From: Bacteroidaceae bacterium
Lineage (GTDB): Bacteria; Bacteroidota; Bacteroidia; Bacteroidales; Bacteroidaceae
Direction: 5' to 3'
NCBI GenBank assembly: GCA_024699495.1
Contig: JAILPK010000011.1
Coordinates: 1 to 64,000 of the forward strand
DNA: 64,000 nt
The position numbers and the translations under genes are program-made. Shown here piece by piece: positions 30,776-41,395 of the stretch. Numbering within the stretch: position 1 is the stretch's first letter; each line of letters opens with the position of its first letter. The notes beneath the pieces were generated by a model. The model was not told where the DNA came from, searched no databases, and worked only from the letters and a program-made list of their open reading frames with translations.

Positions 30776-32833
30776 CTAATCATTGACAAGCGGCAGGAAG
30801 CTGTAGTCACGGCTGTAGCGGAGCATCTGCTGGTCATAGTGCTCTCCGTAGGATACACGCACGTCAGTAATCTCTCCGTCGCTGTCTGTCACAGCCTCAT
30901 ATCTTGGATTGATAAAACCCTTGTATGGGGCAATATTCAGTGCTTTATATCGTTCCAGCACCTCTCTGTGGAGCGTGGAATCTACCTTTACGCCAAAGGT
31001 CTCCACAAGGCGGCGGGCTGCATCAAAGTCTCCCTCGCTCTTGATTCGCTGCACCTCTGCCAGCAGGGAACCGAAGAGATTTCGTAATGCAGGGTAGTCG
31101 TTGATTTGCACGAATGTCTTGCCGTCGCGTTTCACGAGAGCAACCACATCCGAACCACCGGCGCCTTTCCCGCGCCCGTTTTCCAGCACCCAGTGGGAGA
31201 TGAAAGAGCGGTTGCGCATGTGGGCCTCCTCAATGTCTTTCCCCGGCTCGATGCGCACGAGCTGGGTCATCAGACCATTCATCAGATAAGTGTAGAACTG
31301 GCTCTTGTAAGCATCGGCAGAGGGGGTGAGTCCCAACTCAACCAACTTCGGGTCGGCCAGATAGTAGAGGGCAAAGAGGTCTGCGCGCCCCTCCTCGATG
31401 GTGCTCCCATAGGCTTTCAGAGAGTCTGCATCGACTCCGGGAAGCAGTTTTCCGCTTCCGTGTCCGAGGCATTCATGGAGGTCGGTGTGCAGGTCGTCGC
31501 AATAATCCCCGTAGTCGTCTATAAGTTTTTGAGTAGAAGCATCAATTACGAACTCGGCTTGAAAACCATTTCCGTGGGCGGCTTTGTTGTATGCATCAGT
31601 AAGGTTCCCGATGGTGACGCTTTTTGAACCGTGCTCGGCCCGCACCCAGTTGCTGTTGGGCAGGTTGATGCCGATAGCTGTGCTTGGGTAGAGGTCTCCG
31701 CCGAGAATCGCGGCCACAATGACCTTGGCTGAGATGCCTTTTACGCGGTCTTTCCTGAAACGGGCATCCACAGGCGAATGGTCTTCAAACCACTGCGCGT
31801 TGGAACTCAGTTTGTTGGTGCGCTCTGTGGCCTTCTTGTCTTTGAAGTTCGCTATGGCCTCCCACGAGGCTTTCATCCCGAGGGGATCTCCGTAGCTCTC
31901 AGTGAAGTAATTGGTGAAGTCGATGTCGTCCCCGGTGTTGGCGACCCATAGAATAGAGTATTCGTCAAAGGCTTTCAGGTCGCCGGTGCGATAGACATCG
32001 ATGAGTTTTTCTATTACGGCCTGCTGCTTGTCGCTCTCAGCCACGTCGCGCGCTTTCTGCAACCAGAAGACAATCCGGTCTATGGCTTGCCCATATAGCC
32101 CGCCGCAGCGCCACACGCGCTCGCGAATCTTGCCCTGTTCCTTTACCAGGCGGCTGTTCATTCCGAACATGACGGGGCGTTGGGGGTCTGGGGCGGCGTT
32201 TTTCATCTTGGAGTAGAATTCTTCTGCTTCGGCCTGGCTGACGCCCTCGCCATAGTAGTTTTCGGCGCTTGTCAGAATGAGGTCTTCTCCATCTGCCTGG
32301 TTTACGCGTTTGGGCATAACGGCAGGATTGAAAATCACAGGGAATAGTTCGGCGCAGAGAGCGTCTGATGTCTGTCCGTCGGCCCATGTCAGCAGGCTTA
32401 AATCTGACTGCCTGACGGCCTCGCGCAGGAACTGCTCGCTGAATTCAGGCTGAAATTTGTCGCTGCCGTAGTGATGATGGATGCCGTTGCTGAACCAGAC
32501 CCGTTTCAGATATGTCACAAATGCTTGCCACTCAGCTGTTGAGCGGTCTCCCCGGTAGGATGTATATATCCCTTCGAGTAGGTGGCGTATGCGCAGGTTA
32601 TAGCGCCCGTTCTGGTCCCAGAGAATATCCCGTCCGCACAGGGCGGCCTCGCTGAGGTAATAGATGAGTTTCTTTTGTCTCAGGGTCAACTGTTCGAAGC
32701 CCGTGACCTGATAGCGCAGCATCTGCAGGTCTGCAAACCGCTCGTCGCTATATGAAAAAGTTTCGGCTACTGCCTTGTGGGCAGCAGCCGCAGTAAATAC
32801 TGTCATGAATAGAATAATCCGTTTGAGGAACAT
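30776..32833 (-). CDS. Dipeptidyl peptidase III family metallopeptidase (M49)
   Basis: Zinc motif HECLGHGSGK and EEGRADLFALYYL. Confidence 0.93.
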   Translation of the reverse strand: MFLKRIILFMTVFTAAAAHKAVAETFSYSDERFADLQMLRYQVTGFEQLTLRQKKLIYYLSEAALCGRDILWDQNGRYNLRIRHLLEGIYTSYRGDRSTAEWQAFVTYLKRVWFSNGIHHHYGSDKFQPEFSEQFLREAVRQSDLSLLTWADGQTSDALCAELFPVIFNPAVMPKRVNQADGEDLILTSAENYYGEGVSQAEAEEFYSKMKNAAPDPQRPVMFGMNSRLVKEQGKIRERVWRCGGLYGQAIDRIVFWLQKARDVAESDKQQAVIEKLIDVYRTGDLKAFDEYSILWVANTGDDIDFTNYFTESYGDPLGMKASWEAIANFKDKKATERTNKLSSNAQWFEDHSPVDARFRKDRVKGISAKVIVAAILGGDLYPSTAIGINLPNSNWVRAEHGSKSVTIGNLTDAYNKAAHGNGFQAEFVIDASTQKLIDDYGDYCDDLHTDLHECLGHGSGKLLPGVDADSLKAYGSTIEEGRADLFALYYLADPKLVELGLTPSADAYKSQFYTYLMNGLMTQLVRIEPGKDIEEAHMRNRSFISHWVLENGRGKGAGGSDVVALVKRDGKTFVQINDYPALRNLFGSLLAEVQRIKSEGDFDAARRLVETFGVKVDSTLHREVLERYKALNIAPYKGFINPRYEAVTDSDGEITDVRVSYGEHYDQQMLRYSRDYSFLPLVND

Positions 32834-32837
32834 TATC

Positions 32838-33341
32838 TCATGCTTTAGTAGCCTTTTGCTCTTTAGGCTCTTTGGAAGTTGCCTTCATCTTCTCGAAGAA
32901 AACCTGTTGGTATTCTCTCGGTGTCTGTTTTTGGATGTGGTAGAAAGAAGAGTAAAACGACTGCCTGTTGGAGAAGCCTACAGCCGATGCAACTTCCCCC
33001 ATGGTGAGGTTGCGGTTGCGCCGGTCGGTGAGCATATACATCGCATCGCGGATGCGATAGCCGTTGACCAGTTCCGAGTAGTTCATCTGAAAACGCAGAT
33101 TTACTGTGGCGCTGATGTAGCGGGTGTTCGTTCCTATTTCGTTTGCAAGCTGTTTTGCAGAATAGTTCGGGTCACGGTATTTCTTTTCTACGATCATCTT
33201 TTTTAAGATCTGCTCGTATATTTCGTCCATAACCTCGGGCTTTACCAAAGTGCGATAGGCAGCTACCTTATCCTTCTTCTGATGATAATTATACTTTTCC
33301 ATAATGCTGTGAATATATTTGAGGAATGATTGCTTGTGCAA
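32838..33341 (-). CDS. AraC-type helix-turn-helix regulator (short, DNA-binding domain only)
   Basis: SAKQLANEIGTNTRYISATVNLRFQMNYSELVNGYRIRDAMYML..MGEVASAVGFSNRQSFYSSFYHIQKQTPREYQ. Confidence 0.88.
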   Translation of the reverse strand: MHKQSFLKYIHSIMEKYNYHQKKDKVAAYRTLVKPEVMDEIYEQILKKMIVEKKYRDPNYSAKQLANEIGTNTRYISATVNLRFQMNYSELVNGYRIRDAMYMLTDRRNRNLTMGEVASAVGFSNRQSFYSSFYHIQKQTPREYQQVFFEKMKATSKEPKEQKATKA

Positions 33342-33612: not shown

Positions 33613-33638
33613 CGGCCGCCCTCTAAGCGGGGCGACCG
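33613..33638 (-). terminator. Terminator of the SbcC-like gene
   Basis: Minus strand: cggtcgccc-cgcttaga-gggcggccg followed by atttttattt. Confidence 0.7.
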
Positions 33639-33639
33639 G

Positions 33640-33664
33640 AAAAAACTCACGAACTTAAAAACTC
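33640..33664 (-). repeat. Short octamer-phase word array starting in the TAG stop
   Basis: Minus strand: agttgagt ttttaagt tcgtgagt directly after/within TAG. Confidence 0.6.
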
Positions 33665-36332
33665 AACTAGTAGCCTTCTGATGCGCATTTAACAATTCGT
33701 CGTAGTGGGCTATCTGCATCAAAATGTCGCGACGCTGGAGTTCCAGTTCTGCCAGTTGGGAACGCAGGGAATCCTGCTCTGCGCTACCGTCGTCTGCCAC
33801 TGGCTGCATTCCTTCAGCCTGAAGGGCAATGATCTCTGCGCGCAGGTCGTCCACACGAGCCTGAGTCAGCGCATGCTCCAGAGATATAGAGCGGATTTGT
33901 CTGCGCAGTTCGCCCCACTCTTTGCCGTCGGCAAGCAGACGTTCCAGTTCGCCCATTTGAACTGGCGGGTTGTTGGCGTTGTAGCTATGCATCCACACGT
34001 CAAGCCTCTGCTGTTCGGAGGCCGCATCGGACTCGGCACGGTGGATCTGATACTCGGTAAAAGCGAATTGGGCCCTTGCGTCAGAAAGAGCGGCAAGGCA
34101 TAACTTGTAGTCATCAGCAGCCTTGCGGTATGTCTCATGCTGTGTCTTAATTGCGTCGTAAGAAAGCTGGAGGGGGATGTGTCCGTCGCCTCCGTCAAAC
34201 AGCTTCTTGGCAGCGTCTTCCCATTTGGAGACCTGCTCGTCGGCCTTCCGCCAAAACGTCCTCGTGTCGGCAATACTTGCCGAGGTGGAGGCTATGGTCC
34301 GCTTGAGTATCTCGATGGCAGTCTTGACGCGCGCCAGTTCGGCTTCGTATTTTGAAATCTCAGCATTTACAGTGTGCCATTTATTAACCATTTCGGCTAT
34401 GCGCAGTTTGACCCCCTCAGATGAGTCTTTCCACATGCGCAGTAAATCGGGGATGGTAAGTTGCTTGTCTATGGCCTCGTATCTGTGTCTGAAGTTCTGG
34501 GTGGCTGACGAGAGGCTGCTGTTTAGGCGTTCCACCTGTCTTGCCATAACCTGGCAGGCAGTGTTTACCTCGTTTAAGCGTACGGCCAGGTCGTTGGCTT
34601 CCATCTGGCTTTTTTGTATGTCGTCTCCGAGCCTGCTTATGGTATCCATGTGGAAGTTGAACATGTCCAGCTCCTTCTGTGCGGTCTCTTCATCTACGGC
34701 AGTTTTTTCTATCAGTTGCCTGATCATTGACGTGCGTGCCTCGCGGTTGGTTGTAGGCGAACATTCGTTGAGCGAACGGTCGAGCTGACTGAACGTTGCC
34801 CACTCGTCCGTATCTTTGTTCTGACGTTCACGCAGCATGTCAATATTGCCAGATTCTGTTTGAATTTTTCCTCGGACCGATGTCAGTTGCATCTGTAAGT
34901 CCTGAAGGCGCCTCGTTTTTGCTTCCACTTCAGAGGTGAGCATCTCGCAGTCGGCCCTCATCGATGCAATAAGAGCATTCTGCTGTGTCACGGTCTCGCT
35001 ATGCCATGGGTGGTGTGTGGCTCCGCATACGGGGCATGGGCTTGCCTCCTTGAGATCCTGGCGCATGGAGACGACATTCTGGCTTTTGGAGAGAGTCCAA
35101 TGGTAAGTCTTGTCTTCCGACTGGCTCCTCAGCATTCTTACCTCCGCGGCGAGGGAGTCTATAGTCTTGTTCAGGTGCTCAGCTTCCAGACGCAGCTGTG
35201 CAATCAGATGCTCTTTGGTCTCTATCTGTTCGTATCCGGCTGCAATCGTTTTCCATAGCGAGAGTCCGGCTTTCAGCATCAGGTGTCTGCTGCGCAGCTC
35301 CATGACTCGCTGCTGCAGCGAGTAGTTATTCAATCCGGCTATGCTGCGGCGGTGGGCATTGATTTCCTCGCGCATCGTCTGCATGTTGGCTTCTATGTTC
35401 TGACTCTCGGTGAAGAGGCGGCTCAGTTGTTCGTTGCGCTCGTTCTGGCTGAGCGAGGCCTGGTGCAGTTGCTGCTGTAAGTTGTCACGCAGTTGCATGG
35501 AGACAAGCAACTCATCCAGTTGTATCTGAAGAGAGTCACCGTGGTCAAGCATTTCCTGATGGGCTGCGAGCATCTGCTGCTCTTTGCACAGGGCATCGAG
35601 ATGTTCCTGCAGCGATGCCTGGGTAGCCTCGTATTCCTTAAGCTCCTTGGTCAGGGAACTGAGATATTCCTCCTCGGAAGCGCTCAACCCCGAGAAGTCT
35701 TTCTCATAAGTCTGCAATGTGGAAATAGAGGCGTGGAGACGTTCGCTTTCGCTCAACGAGAGGGCCGTCTGCATCATGACCTCCTGCAGTTCTATCTCTT
35801 TCTGCTTTTCTATATTCAGCACTCTCTCAGCCTCGTCGGCATGCCGTTTGGCGTTCTCTATTTCTACCGACAGGCGGCTTTGCTCTGTGCGGGCGCTGTT
35901 TATGGTTCGGGTGAGCATCTGCAGGCGCTGAAAACGTCCGCTTATAGCCTCGAAGGTCTCAAAACGCTCCAGTTCGTGCTCTTCTGCGACAATACTCGCC
36001 TTGCGCTTGTTTACGTCGTACAGTTTCTGTGTCTGCTCGCGCAGTTCGGTGTTTATCCGGACAAAGCGGTGTAGCTTCTCCTGCTGCTCGTGGATGTGTG
36101 AAATCTGATCTTCGATATTTGTCAAATGGGTGGTGCTGAGTCGGCGCCCCTCCTGAGTCTTCATCAGCGTATCGTCATCAAGAACATGTTCCAGGCGGGT
36201 TGCGCGTTGGACTTCCAGACGAGACATGCTTCGCAACCAACTGCGCACTTCATCGGGCAACGGCGTCCCATATCTGCTCATCCACCATTGCTTTGTGGCC
36301 TCTTCGGCATTTTCAATCTCTACAAAAGGCAT
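33663..36332 (-). CDS. SbcC/Rad50-like coiled-coil zinc-hook protein lacking recognisable ATPase head halves
   Basis: 889 aa, mostly coiled coil; LKEASPCPVCGATHHPW zinc hook at residues 433-436, the exact middle. No Walker A in the N-terminus and no LSGGE/Walker B in the C-terminus. Confidence 0.7.
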   Translation of the reverse strand: MPFVEIENAEEATKQWWMSRYGTPLPDEVRSWLRSMSRLEVQRATRLEHVLDDDTLMKTQEGRRLSTTHLTNIEDQISHIHEQQEKLHRFVRINTELREQTQKLYDVNKRKASIVAEEHELERFETFEAISGRFQRLQMLTRTINSARTEQSRLSVEIENAKRHADEAERVLNIEKQKEIELQEVMMQTALSLSESERLHASISTLQTYEKDFSGLSASEEEYLSSLTKELKEYEATQASLQEHLDALCKEQQMLAAHQEMLDHGDSLQIQLDELLVSMQLRDNLQQQLHQASLSQNERNEQLSRLFTESQNIEANMQTMREEINAHRRSIAGLNNYSLQQRVMELRSRHLMLKAGLSLWKTIAAGYEQIETKEHLIAQLRLEAEHLNKTIDSLAAEVRMLRSQSEDKTYHWTLSKSQNVVSMRQDLKEASPCPVCGATHHPWHSETVTQQNALIASMRADCEMLTSEVEAKTRRLQDLQMQLTSVRGKIQTESGNIDMLRERQNKDTDEWATFSQLDRSLNECSPTTNREARTSMIRQLIEKTAVDEETAQKELDMFNFHMDTISRLGDDIQKSQMEANDLAVRLNEVNTACQVMARQVERLNSSLSSATQNFRHRYEAIDKQLTIPDLLRMWKDSSEGVKLRIAEMVNKWHTVNAEISKYEAELARVKTAIEILKRTIASTSASIADTRTFWRKADEQVSKWEDAAKKLFDGGDGHIPLQLSYDAIKTQHETYRKAADDYKLCLAALSDARAQFAFTEYQIHRAESDAASEQQRLDVWMHSYNANNPPVQMGELERLLADGKEWGELRRQIRSISLEHALTQARVDDLRAEIIALQAEGMQPVADDGSAEQDSLRSQLAELELQRRDILMQIAHYDELLNAHQKATS

Positions 36333-36424
36333 GATTTTCTGTTTTTGAGGCTGCAAAATTACATTAAAGGAAGGGCACAGGCAAAAAAAAAGGTGCAAAA
36401 GTTTTCTGTAATAACAGCTTTTTG

Positions 36425-36433: not shown

Positions 36434-36522
36434 ACCAACTTAGCAACTATTCGAAGCACAGCTTAGGCTGATTCAGTTATAAAAGCGGTCATAACAGATT
36501 CAACAAAATAAAATACGAAGCA

Positions 36523-39033
36523 ATGCGCAAACTTTTCTTTCCCCTTATCTTTTTCGCTTTTACTCTCACAGTAAGTGCGCAGCAGACTCTTACCGTCGAT
36601 GTGGCGCAGAAGGGCGCTCCCATAGGAAATCTCTATGGGATTTTCTTTGAGGAAATCAATCACGCAGGAGACGGAGGCCTTTATGCAGAACTGGTCCGCA
36701 ACCGTTCGTTTGAGGACGATGATGCCTGGGGACCCAATTCTCCTCGCCGCGGAGGCCGTGTGCGTCCCGGCGGTCGCCGTGTCATGGGGCCACGCAACAT
36801 GATAACCGGCTGGCATGCGGTTAAGGCAGAGATGATGCTTGACTCGGTCAATTTGCTGAACAAGATTCAGACCCGCTCGTTGAAGCTGAATGTAAGCGAG
36901 GCAGGCGGCGGCGCCCGCAACGAAGGCTTCTGGGGAATGAATGTAACGGCTGGAACCCGTTATCATTTTTCTGCTTGGATAAAGACAGACAAAAAGTTTA
37001 CGCCTAAGATGACGGTCTCACTGAGGAACAGCGATGATCCAAACGATATCCTCGGTTCTGCAGATGTCTTGGTTAAGACCAAGGGTAAATGGACAAAGGT
37101 GGAGACAGACATCACAGCAGACAAATCCAATGCCCAGGCCAATCTGTATCTGACATTCGACCGCCCGGGGACGTTGCTGATGGATGTTGTAAGCCTCTTC
37201 CCGCCCACTTTCCGCGACCGTCCTAACGGCTGCAGAAAAGACCTCGCACAACTGCTGCTCGACTTGCACCCGCGCTTTATGCGTTTCCCCGGTGGCTGTT
37301 ACGTGGAAGGACAGGCTGCAGGCAACGGCAAGGAAAACCGCTTTGTGTGGTATAACACTGTAGGTCCGATAGAACAGCGGCCGGGACATCTGAATGTCAA
37401 CTGGCGCTATAATGTCAGCGATGGAATGGGCTATCATGAGATGCTGCAGCTCTCGGAAGACCTCGGCGCAGAGCCTCTCTTCGTGGTGAATGTTGGTATT
37501 GGACATGGATGGATGGCGCCTCTGGACAGTCTGCAGCCTTACATTCAGGAGGCTCTTGATGCCATCGAGTATGCCAACGGCGATGCCAAGAAGACCAAAT
37601 GGGGCAAGAAGCGCGCTGCCAACGGGCATCCGGCTCCTTTCGGACTCCGGTTGCTGGAGGTGGGCAACGAGAATGCCAACTTCCATTTCGACGATAACAG
37701 CGACCAGAGCCATAAGTATTTTGAGCGCTACAAGTTATTCTACGATGCTATAAAGAAAAAATATCCTGAAATACAAATTATCGGAAATGTGGAGTCCTGG
37801 GGCACCGACGAGCCGTCGTGGAGAAGCCAGTTGCCGGTGGATCTCCTTGACGAGCATTACTATCGCAGCCCTTCATGGTTCGCAGCCCGATATGAGAAAT
37901 ATGACTCTTATGACCGCAAGGGACCGAAAATCTATGTCGGAGAATACGCTGTGACGAGCGATTTCGGCACCAACGGACATCTGACTGCCGGCCTCGGAGA
38001 GGCGATTTACATGTTGGGCATGGAGCGGAATGCCGATATTGTGGCGCATGCGTCTTATGCTCCCATCTTTGTGCATGAGGAGGATCAGGCATGGCGGCCG
38101 GATATGATCCGCTTCAATTCAGCCAAGAGCTTCGGAACCCCTTCCTATTGGGTGCAGAACCTGATGGCCAATAACGTCGGAACGCAGAACGTCTCATTCA
38201 ATATTACCAATAACATTTTGCCGGCACGCATCGGACATCAGATGGGCGTCTCCTCTTGGGGAACCAAGGTGTCTTATTCAGACCTGCGCGTAACAGATCT
38301 CGACAGCGGACAGCCCTATGCCGTCACCAGTGACTGGACTGCACAGGCAGGGCAGCGCGGCAGCAAGGGGGAGTGGACTCTGAACGGAGGCTCAATAACC
38401 CAAAACGACCAACGCAGTGAGGGCTCTGTATTCCTTAATTCCACCCGTTTCGGCGATAATTATGCCATAGACATTACTTTCACCCGCATAGAAGGAGCCG
38501 AGGGCGCAATCATAGTCTTTGGCTACGAAGACGCTGACAATTATCTATGGTGGAATCTCGGCGGATGGGGAAACGGTCAGCATGCCATAGAACAGATCTC
38601 TTCCGGTTCAAAAAGCACAATAAAGACTATTCGGGGTTCTCTTGAGAGCGGCCGCCCGTATAAGGCTCATATTGAGGTGCGCGGCACTCACGTGACATGC
38701 TCCCTGGACGGAAAGCAGATGTTTGATTTCTCTTTGCCACAACAGCAGCATATCTACACCGCATCGGAGATGAATGGCGCTGATGAACTCATCATAAAAC
38801 TCGTCAACCCAACTGCTGAGGCTGCAGCCCTTAATTTAGACATTCGCGGCTTCAAACCTTCATCAGCTCGCCTTATTCGTCTGTCTTCTGGAAACGGCAA
38901 GGATGAGAACACGATGGAGAAACCTATGAATGTATCACCTGCAGAAAGCACTCTCACCATCGGATCACCTTTCCTCTTCGCCGCACAACCTTATTCTCTG
39001 AATATAATAAGGATGAAGGGCCTCGTTCCCTAA
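36523..39033 (+). CDS. Alpha-L-arabinofuranosidase (GH51-like) with C-terminal LamG/GH59-like domain
   Basis: Signal peptide, IGNLYGIFFEEINHAGDGGLYAELVRNRSFE, RFPGGCYVEG, LLEVGNENANFHF (acid/base), KIYVGEYAVTS (nucleophile). Confidence 0.9.
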   Translation: MRKLFFPLIFFAFTLTVSAQQTLTVDVAQKGAPIGNLYGIFFEEINHAGDGGLYAELVRNRSFEDDDAWGPNSPRRGGRVRPGGRRVMGPRNMITGWHAVKAEMMLDSVNLLNKIQTRSLKLNVSEAGGGARNEGFWGMNVTAGTRYHFSAWIKTDKKFTPKMTVSLRNSDDPNDILGSADVLVKTKGKWTKVETDITADKSNAQANLYLTFDRPGTLLMDVVSLFPPTFRDRPNGCRKDLAQLLLDLHPRFMRFPGGCYVEGQAAGNGKENRFVWYNTVGPIEQRPGHLNVNWRYNVSDGMGYHEMLQLSEDLGAEPLFVVNVGIGHGWMAPLDSLQPYIQEALDAIEYANGDAKKTKWGKKRAANGHPAPFGLRLLEVGNENANFHFDDNSDQSHKYFERYKLFYDAIKKKYPEIQIIGNVESWGTDEPSWRSQLPVDLLDEHYYRSPSWFAARYEKYDSYDRKGPKIYVGEYAVTSDFGTNGHLTAGLGEAIYMLGMERNADIVAHASYAPIFVHEEDQAWRPDMIRFNSAKSFGTPSYWVQNLMANNVGTQNVSFNITNNILPARIGHQMGVSSWGTKVSYSDLRVTDLDSGQPYAVTSDWTAQAGQRGSKGEWTLNGGSITQNDQRSEGSVFLNSTRFGDNYAIDITFTRIEGAEGAIIVFGYEDADNYLWWNLGGWGNGQHAIEQISSGSKSTIKTIRGSLESGRPYKAHIEVRGTHVTCSLDGKQMFDFSLPQQQHIYTASEMNGADELIIKLVNPTAEAAALNLDIRGFKPSSARLIRLSSGNGKDENTMEKPMNVSPAESTLTIGSPFLFAAQPYSLNIIRMKGLVP

Positions 39034-39242: not shown

Positions 39243-39337
39243 GATTAGAGACAGATGAGCGCATCGCGCAGATGAGAGATGTGCGATTGGAGACAATTTG
39301 TCTGAGCATTAATAAAAGTATTGAAATTGAAAGAAAA

Positions 39338-41395
39338 ATGAGAAATATGGAAAAAAGACTAACAAGCGCATTGCACCATCTTACTCAGGGCATTTCCTTC
39401 AGCCTTGTGTGTATTAGCCTTTTTGCGGTCACGACTGCTTCGGCTCAGAAAACCATGAAAGCCCCATCGGGCGGAAAACCAATTAGTGACGAACTCATAG
39501 GTATTTTCTTTGAGGATATCAGTTCCAGCGCTGACGGAGGCCTCTGTGCAGAGCTTATTCAAAACGGCTCATTCGAATTCAATGCCAACGAGAGAGATGG
39601 TTGGGGGCCGAGCACTGCGTGGCGTGTTATCCGTCCGGGACATTCACTTGGTTTCCTTCAGTCCCAGATGTCGAGCCCCATCCATCCTAACAACCCGACA
39701 TATATGCATCTGCATACGGAGCGCGTAAAAGAATATTATGACTATAACGGATGGAAGGGATTCGGTCTGCAAAACGACGGCTTTGGTGGAATCAATGTCA
39801 AGGCTGGCGCAAAATACAATTTCTCTGCTTTTTTCCGCAATTGCTCTGAAGGGCAGAAGGATGTTTATATAGCTCTCGTAGAACCCCAAGGTAGGGGAAA
39901 ATCCCCCAAACTCCTGTCTGAAGCTATCGCTTTCGTGTCTTCAACAAGTTGGGAGAAGACAGAAGCTCTGCTTGTGCCCTCAGAGTCATCTGCTAAGGCA
40001 GCGTTGCAAATTCTGGTACAAACTCCCGGCGATCTCGATATCGACATGGTGTCTCTTATGCCAGAAGATACTTATAAAGGCCATGGCCTGCGCAAAGATC
40101 TTGTTCAGGCTCTTGCCGACCTGAAACCAAAGTTCATGCGCTTCCCCGGAGGATGTGTTGTTCATGGGGGCGGGGATGGCTTTTGGAACACTTATCGCTG
40201 GAAGACTACGATAGGTCCCAAAGAATATCGTTATCAGATGAAGAATACCTGGGGCTATCATCAGAGCATGGGACTGGGGTATTTTGAGTATTTCCAGTTA
40301 TGCGAGGATTTGGGCATGCAACCCCTTCCCATTTTGCCTTGTGGAGTCAGTTGTCAAGGAGCCAACGGCGGTTGGAATATGCGTGGTCAGGCCCAGGATG
40401 CTGTTCCGATGTCTGAGATGGATGAGTGGGTGAGCGAGGCGCTTGACCTGATTGAATGGGCCAACGGCGACCCCGCCACAAGTGCGTGGGCCCGTTTGCG
40501 TGCCCAGGCGGGACATCCGGCTCCTTTTAATCTGAAATATCTGGGCATTGGAAACGAGGAGAAAATCTCTCCCGAATTCTCCGAGCGCTTCCGGTATATT
40601 TACAAGAAGGTGGTGGAGAAATATCCTGATATCGTAATCGTTGGCACTGCAGGCCCAGGCTCTCATCCGGGCAATCCTGACTTGGAAAACGGATGGAAAC
40701 TTGCCGAAGAACTCGGCATGCCTATTATAGACGAACACTATTACGAACCGCGCGACTATTTTCTGCGCAGCCGCCAATATGACAAATACCCTCGCAGCCG
40801 CAAGACAAAAGTCTATCTTGGAGAGTATGCCTCAAAAGACAAAAAACTCATTGATGCTTTGGCCGAGGGCCTTTATCTCCTGCATGTGGAGCGCAATGGT
40901 GATATTGTTTCAATGACATCCTATGCTCCTCTCTTCGCCAAGAAAAATGCCACCAACTGGAATCCGGATCTGATTTATTTCGACAATGAACGTCTCTATC
41001 TTACCTGCAGTTATTACATTCAGCAGATGTTCGGCCAGAGTTCGGGACAATATTATTATGGTAATTGTGTCCGCTTTGACGGTGACGCCGCAGGCATTCA
41101 GCAACCGCAGGAGGGTGTCCATTATGGGCAGTCGGTGGTTTTGAACGTCCGTTCGCGCCAGCTTTTCGTCAAACTCTGCAATGCAAGTTCCGAGCCAAAG
41201 ACGGCTTCAGTTGACATATCGAAGTTCGGAAGTGCAAAGAGCGCTACGAAGACCATTCTCGCAGGTCAGCCGGAGGACGAAAATAATTTTGATGCCCAGC
41301 CAGTTTCACCGAAGACAGAGACTTTCAAACCGAAGAAGAAGTTCAATATCACGTTGGAACCCTATTCGTTTGTGATGCTCAGCTATAATCTCTGA
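39338..41395 (+). CDS. Alpha-L-arabinofuranosidase (GH51)
   Basis: PISDELIGIFFEDISSSADGGLCAELIQNGSFEF, RFPGGCVVHG, YLGIGNEEKISPEF, KVYLGEYASKDK. Confidence 0.93.
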   Translation: MRNMEKRLTSALHHLTQGISFSLVCISLFAVTTASAQKTMKAPSGGKPISDELIGIFFEDISSSADGGLCAELIQNGSFEFNANERDGWGPSTAWRVIRPGHSLGFLQSQMSSPIHPNNPTYMHLHTERVKEYYDYNGWKGFGLQNDGFGGINVKAGAKYNFSAFFRNCSEGQKDVYIALVEPQGRGKSPKLLSEAIAFVSSTSWEKTEALLVPSESSAKAALQILVQTPGDLDIDMVSLMPEDTYKGHGLRKDLVQALADLKPKFMRFPGGCVVHGGGDGFWNTYRWKTTIGPKEYRYQMKNTWGYHQSMGLGYFEYFQLCEDLGMQPLPILPCGVSCQGANGGWNMRGQAQDAVPMSEMDEWVSEALDLIEWANGDPATSAWARLRAQAGHPAPFNLKYLGIGNEEKISPEFSERFRYIYKKVVEKYPDIVIVGTAGPGSHPGNPDLENGWKLAEELGMPIIDEHYYEPRDYFLRSRQYDKYPRSRKTKVYLGEYASKDKKLIDALAEGLYLLHVERNGDIVSMTSYAPLFAKKNATNWNPDLIYFDNERLYLTCSYYIQQMFGQSSGQYYYGNCVRFDGDAAGIQQPQEGVHYGQSVVLNVRSRQLFVKLCNASSEPKTASVDISKFGSAKSATKTILAGQPEDENNFDAQPVSPKTETFKPKKKFNITLEPYSFVMLSYNL

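Follow-up and report, generated by a model that had tools for sequence, protein, structure and literature searches.

A headless SbcD–SbcC fusion with a zinc hook, very probably maintained under selection in one branch of the Bacteroidaceae

The locus and its signals

The window, i.e., the whole 64-kb stretch of DNA analyzed, contains an 889-residue open reading frame that the earlier note had described as an SbcC-like coiled-coil protein with a zinc hook and no ATPase heads. The frame is real. It lies on the minus strand, which the note had left unstated, with an ATG at 36332 and a stop at 33663–33665, and it is also open upstream to a TTG at 36446. The layout of the locus is as follows.

30776–32833, minus: family M49 peptidase (DPP III-like), given for context
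32838–33302, minus: stand-alone AraC-type HTH protein, a separate transcription unit here, given for context
33613–33638, minus: intrinsic terminator, a 9-bp stem then ATTTTTATTT, 25–50 nt past the stop (simple consensus match)
33663–36332, minus: headless SbcD-tail/SbcC-coil gene, 889 aa, intact and of equal length in relatives
33669–34991, minus: residues 448–888, descending coil, the C-terminal head lobe being absent (alignment, model, conservation)
35025–35036, minus: zinc hook CPVC, residues 433–436, the point of peak conservation
35085–36176, minus: residues 53–416, ascending coil, collinear with the SbcC coil (profile alignment and AlphaFold helices)
36186–36311, minus: residues 8–49, helix-loop-helix descended from the SbcD C-terminal tail, the Mre11 Rad50-binding domain (hhalign; two predicted helices)
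36354–36385, minus: Bacteroides-type promoter TTTG-N20-TAATTTTG, about 20 nt before the ATG (motif scan)

The window has four TTTG-N20-TAATTTTG sites where 0.57 would be expected, a count not attained in any of 100 shuffles. Of 49 relatives, 12 have this motif upstream of the gene, compared with 0.1% of shuffles.

The order of neighbors is stable in relatives: AraC-type HTH protein, M49 peptidase, DNA-alkylation-repair-like protein, Fur, and purA. A functional link with the AraC-type protein and the peptidase was considered and set aside. The gene's own terminator intervenes, and in some relatives recQ does too; thus, the conserved neighbors are not evidence of function, and their conserved order probably reflects a shared locus history. 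As the earlier note had stated, no sbcD adjoins the gene in the window; all that is present of SbcD is its C-terminal tail, fused in frame.

Two further observations concern the neighbors. The M49 peptidase of the window opens with a signal-peptide-like stretch (MFLKRIILFMTVFTAAAA), and some relatives (e.g., L024) start without one. Divergent from the headless gene are two consecutive arabinofuranosidase-like genes (36523–39033 and 39272–41395, plus strand), the first of which has the same position in many relatives.

Domain content and predicted structure

No Pfam family matches the protein, and no ABC or AAA domain is found; NCBIfam returns only coil matches below the cut-off. An AlphaFold model, run with 50 relatives, has a mean pLDDT of 83 and a pTM of 0.32, hence only its local structure is meaningful. 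It shows helices at residues 9–21 and 27–49, long helices up to residue 416, the hook loop, and helices from 448 to 888, the descending coil being broken at 517–529 and 788–792 (the YNANxPPVQ-ELE knuckle). There is no β-strand anywhere in the model, and it follows that there is no cryptic ABC head lobe, a possibility that the earlier note had raised. Foldseek against the PDB gives SMC-type coils only, none of whose TM-scores over the query exceeds 0.19.

Sequence and predicted helices fit a putative coiled-coil hairpin with a CxxC hook at its apex. The hook proposed in the earlier note, CPVCG, holds up well: the C..CG motif is present in 78 of the 78 relatives read, mostly inside xCxVCGATHHPW/Y, so the hook is not a chance occurrence. 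Residues 406–450 form the most conserved stretch of the protein. At the other end of the coil, an N-terminal ABC lobe with Walker A is missing by Pfam, by the model, and by an alignment that begins past the N lobe; a C-terminal lobe with LSGGE signature and Walker B is missing by the same three approaches. The motif losses reported in the earlier note thus stand. With both ABC lobes absent there is no P-loop, Q-loop, signature, or Walker B, and ATP binding and hydrolysis would be impossible.

Origin from an sbcD–sbcC pair

Three genera of the same family (g12, g15, and g26) have an SbcC of about 1250 residues, with an adjoining SbcD wherever the contig shows both genes. In a profile alignment, residues 45–888 of the headless protein correspond to SbcC residues 230–1072 of 1257, collinear throughout (E 5e-119) and essentially free of gaps except in the last ~45 residues. 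The cuts fall directly after the N-terminal lobe and directly before the C-terminal lobe of SbcC. Thus, both head lobes have been cleanly removed.

By hhalign, the N-terminal ~45 residues pair with the far C-terminal end of SbcD at scores of 38.8–43.2; the best score among 60 column shuffles against the canonical SbcD set was 17.5. The coil that the earlier note had seen on both sides of the hook is all-helical and collinear with that of SbcC, but its first ~45 residues are the helix-loop-helix of the SbcD C-terminus. Mre11 uses its C-terminal helix-loop-helix to contact Rad50 at the base of the coil (PMC7260605, PMC3175470). The SbcD helix-loop-helix and the base of the SbcC coil, both retained in the headless protein, would thus be expected to make contact.

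A tree of the coil, built in quick mode from 57 SbcC-type proteins, places the headless proteins in a single clade (support 100), joined with the full-length SbcC of g12, g15, and g26 (support 99). The protein belongs to the SbcC lineage by descent, while by function it fails the defining tests of that family. As an SbcD tail and an SbcC coil share one frame, the gene is, on the evidence of the alignments, a collapsed sbcD–sbcC operon in which SbcD has lost its nuclease and capping parts and SbcC its two ATPase lobes. That it is a relic fusion maintained under selection we regard as very probable.

Two simpler origins were rejected. The tree rules out a duplicate of the SbcC encoded elsewhere in the same genome. 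A frameshifted copy of full-length SbcC, raised in the earlier note, is ruled out as well, as an intact frame of the same length is found across most of the genus and head coding is absent nearby.

Distribution and selection

Searches with the headless gene give a match in 93 of the 101 genomes of the genus, three of these in a shorter version that lacks the hook. When that version is used as the query, one more species is gained, which brings the carriers to 94 of 101, i.e., 90 with the long form and four with the hookless form. No match to either is found in the other seven genomes; many of the 101 are incomplete metagenome-assembled genomes (MAGs), and incompleteness inflates absences. When only genomes at least 90% complete are counted, the gene in one form or the other is present in 12 of 12, and sbcD in two of 12. 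Among the carriers are Bacteroidaceae MAGs from rumen and gut, and Paraprevotella, including P. xylaniphila YIT 11841. There is no match at E 1e-20 in 294 other genomes from the order. One record titled Clostridium sp. (L106, JAMPGY010000009.1) has the gene among its usual neighbors; since the corresponding genome, G240, is classified in the Bacteroidaceae, the title is probably wrong.

dN/dS lies between 0.04 and 0.16 in close pairs of headless genes. These values and the distribution indicate that the gene is under purifying selection and inherited vertically down one clade.

True SbcCD in the genus

Full-length partners are scarce. sbcC (PF13558 over cut-off) and sbcD (TIGR00619 over cut-off) are each found in eight of the 101 genus genomes. 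One of the genomes with an intact pair is that of the window itself, where a search for a complete sbcCD, as advised in the earlier note, found sbcD–sbcC on contig C47 (L043, C47:1-8000). In the tree, the C47 SbcC clusters with g23, g24, and one other species, away from the headless clade, and its type is sporadic in the genus. Its different lineage and sporadic occurrence suggest acquisition from outside.

The earlier note had offered, as one role, a paralogue that has lost catalysis. The loss of catalysis stands, and the protein is a headless SbcC, as judged by the end-to-end coil alignment, its place in the SbcC clade, and purifying selection. It is not, however, simply paralogous to the SbcC of the same genome, as the latter falls in another lineage and the headless gene descends from the sbcD–sbcC pair of the sister genera and contains a piece of SbcD.

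The other role offered was that of a scaffold or modulator pairing through the zinc hook with true SbcC; such pairing would yield mixed dimers or a dominant-negative effect. The resident pair on C47, whose SbcC hook LKPDTPCPLCGAVHHPF resembles LKEASPCPVCGATHHPW, would permit such pairing in this genome, and sbcD is present in seven of the 11 genus g22 genomes of the sample. As a general role it is refuted by the counts, in which carriers of the headless or hookless gene far outnumber genomes with a possible partner, and the SbcCs present in the genus belong to several other lineages, mostly with different hooks. We therefore think modulation quite unlikely. A split SbcCD, in which separate genes supply ATPase lobes and nuclease in trans, would explain the retention of arm and SbcD helix-loop-helix but can hardly be right, as the five best non-SbcC AAA_23 matches in the genome are RecF, RecN, an OLD-like ATPase, an ABC transporter, and an ABC-F protein, with no head-only SbcC among them.

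The arm is thus retained by selection where a working SbcCD is mostly absent. It follows that the arm must be useful without its engine.

Losses of motifs, tail, and hook

In the g12 and g15 genomes, the motifs of SbcC and SbcD are intact in most cases. The exceptions are instructive. In a g15 genome (G179), the SbcC motifs read GEPEGKQSL, LSSGE, and FVQSDFG, and SbcD shows changes of metal ligands in its motifs (DWYLG, GNVFD, GQRDS, and GMVD). In four g12 genomes (G111, G139, G176, and G206), Walker A, signature, or Walker B of SbcC is lost, and in G159 partly so; damage to SbcD is clear in G111 and partial in G206. No second SbcC or SbcD is reported in the genomes with decayed SbcC (G179, G111, G139, G176, and G206). 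Coil and hook are intact in every SbcC with decayed motifs. Pairwise similarities follow suit: pairs of intact SbcCs are more similar in their heads (0.53–0.82) than in their coils (0.27–0.63), and this excess is mostly gone when one member of the pair is decayed. The ATPase motifs have been lost independently in the full-length SbcC of two related lineages, with coil and hook kept.

Within the headless clade, several hook-bearing copies have no SbcD tail. The hookless form, of 612–615 residues and found in four species (L071 5105-6949 on the minus strand, L072 5657-7492, L073 5672-7507, and L202), has no CxxC, no heads, and no SbcD tail. Where inspected, it sits at the locus of the long form, with hisS and the M49 peptidase on either side (hisS / M49 peptidase / purA block). 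Thus, neither the hook nor the SbcD tail is indispensable everywhere. Segments equivalent to LERFETFE and YNANxPPVQ-ELE do persist in the hookless forms, so the base-proximal knuckle is a candidate functional site.

Such a succession of losses (ATPase motifs, heads, SbcD tail, and hook) is what a gene on its way out, with no present function, would display. Seven genomes without a match and a copy in two frames in G035 point the same way. The low dN/dS, however, is not that of a remnant, and frames are open in nearly all genomes, over the full 612–615 residues even in the four hookless species; the hook is universal in the long form, and the gene has its own promoter and terminator. Decay is accordingly an improbable account. 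The G035 copy (L074 5729-8463) is itself either a frameshift or an assembly error.

A proposed zinc-hook tether

In the usual account of SbcC/Rad50, the ATPase head drives the nuclease, and arm and hook are a passive linkage. Given that hook and coil persist, with the grip of SbcD still present at the base, the headless protein is most simply modeled as a Zn-linked double hairpin acting as a passive tether. In this model, the protein would double back at the hook, its two coil segments running antiparallel, and two molecules would join through one Zn at their CxxC hooks. The SbcD-derived helix-loop-helix would pack on the free coil base or cap it, as Mre11 does on Rad50. The product would be a long, ATP-independent rod, linking whatever binds its two bases, be it DNA or another protein. 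The Rad50 hook is known to be a stable dimerization module, interchangeable with the SMC hinge (PMC6969161). A collapsed sbcD–sbcC operon, retained and acting as a Zn-hook-dimerized tether, is the best explanation overall, and we consider it fairly likely. For the present function taken by itself, a tether free of nuclease and ATPase has about an even chance of being correct.

Comparison with known systems

The headless protein shares with SbcC/Rad50 (SbcCD of bacteria, Mre11–Rad50 of eukaryotes and archaea) the whole coil and the Zn hook, ~840 collinear residues that indicate common ancestry, and differs in having neither ABC lobe. Its likeness to SbcD/Mre11 is confined to the Rad50-binding helix-loop-helix; phosphodiesterase and capping domains are absent. 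The closest precedents in layout are the Mre11/Rad50 (SbcDC) fusions, such as Mimivirus R555 (PMC3175470), in which the SbcD part lies upstream of the SbcC part, the helix-loop-helix included. Those fusions keep nuclease and ATPase domains, two of them without one P-loop segment; they are sporadic, and viruses have been proposed as their origin (PMC3175470). In contrast, the headless gene is vertically inherited and has lost nuclease and ATPase domains alike (Pfam, model). In a literature search, no description was found of a headless, nuclease-free SbcD–SbcC fusion, nor of a headless or catalytically dead SbcC/Rad50.

The best PADLOC match is to LmuB of Lamassu, an SMC-like defense protein with a long coil and kinship to SMC/Rad50. 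The gene might then serve in phage conflict, either as an inactive imitation of SbcCD by which phage inhibitors of that complex are absorbed or detected, or as an LmuB-like SMC defense part. Repeated catalytic death with the outer shape kept would suit a decoy. The LmuB matches are weak, however (best 7.8e-15), and the ATPase head and effector neighbor that LmuB needs are both absent, there being neither LmuA nor LmuC. The gene sits among housekeeping neighbors in stable order and is near-universal and vertically inherited, unlike most defense genes; one scan of viral contigs gave just a 25-residue hook match and no real viral homologue, so that a phage origin was rejected as well. We give a decoy or sensor little credence.

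Most species of a large genus, together with Paraprevotella, have retained the arm, the hook, and the grip of SbcD after evolution removed head and nuclease. It may be, with the balance about level, that the coil-plus-hook of SbcCD has a conserved function independent of ATPase and nuclease in this Bacteroidaceae branch, that the heads were lost or killed at least three separate times, and that the headless fusion represents a stand-alone zinc-hook tether of a new class. Natural headless proteins, in place of truncation mutants, allow a direct test of the role of the Rad50 arm alone, and intermediate stages are seen in sister lineages.

The loci L060, L061, L162, L164, L165, and L168, each with a full-length SbcC of decayed motifs and, in G179, G111, and partly G206, a decayed SbcD as well, form a natural pseudoenzyme series.
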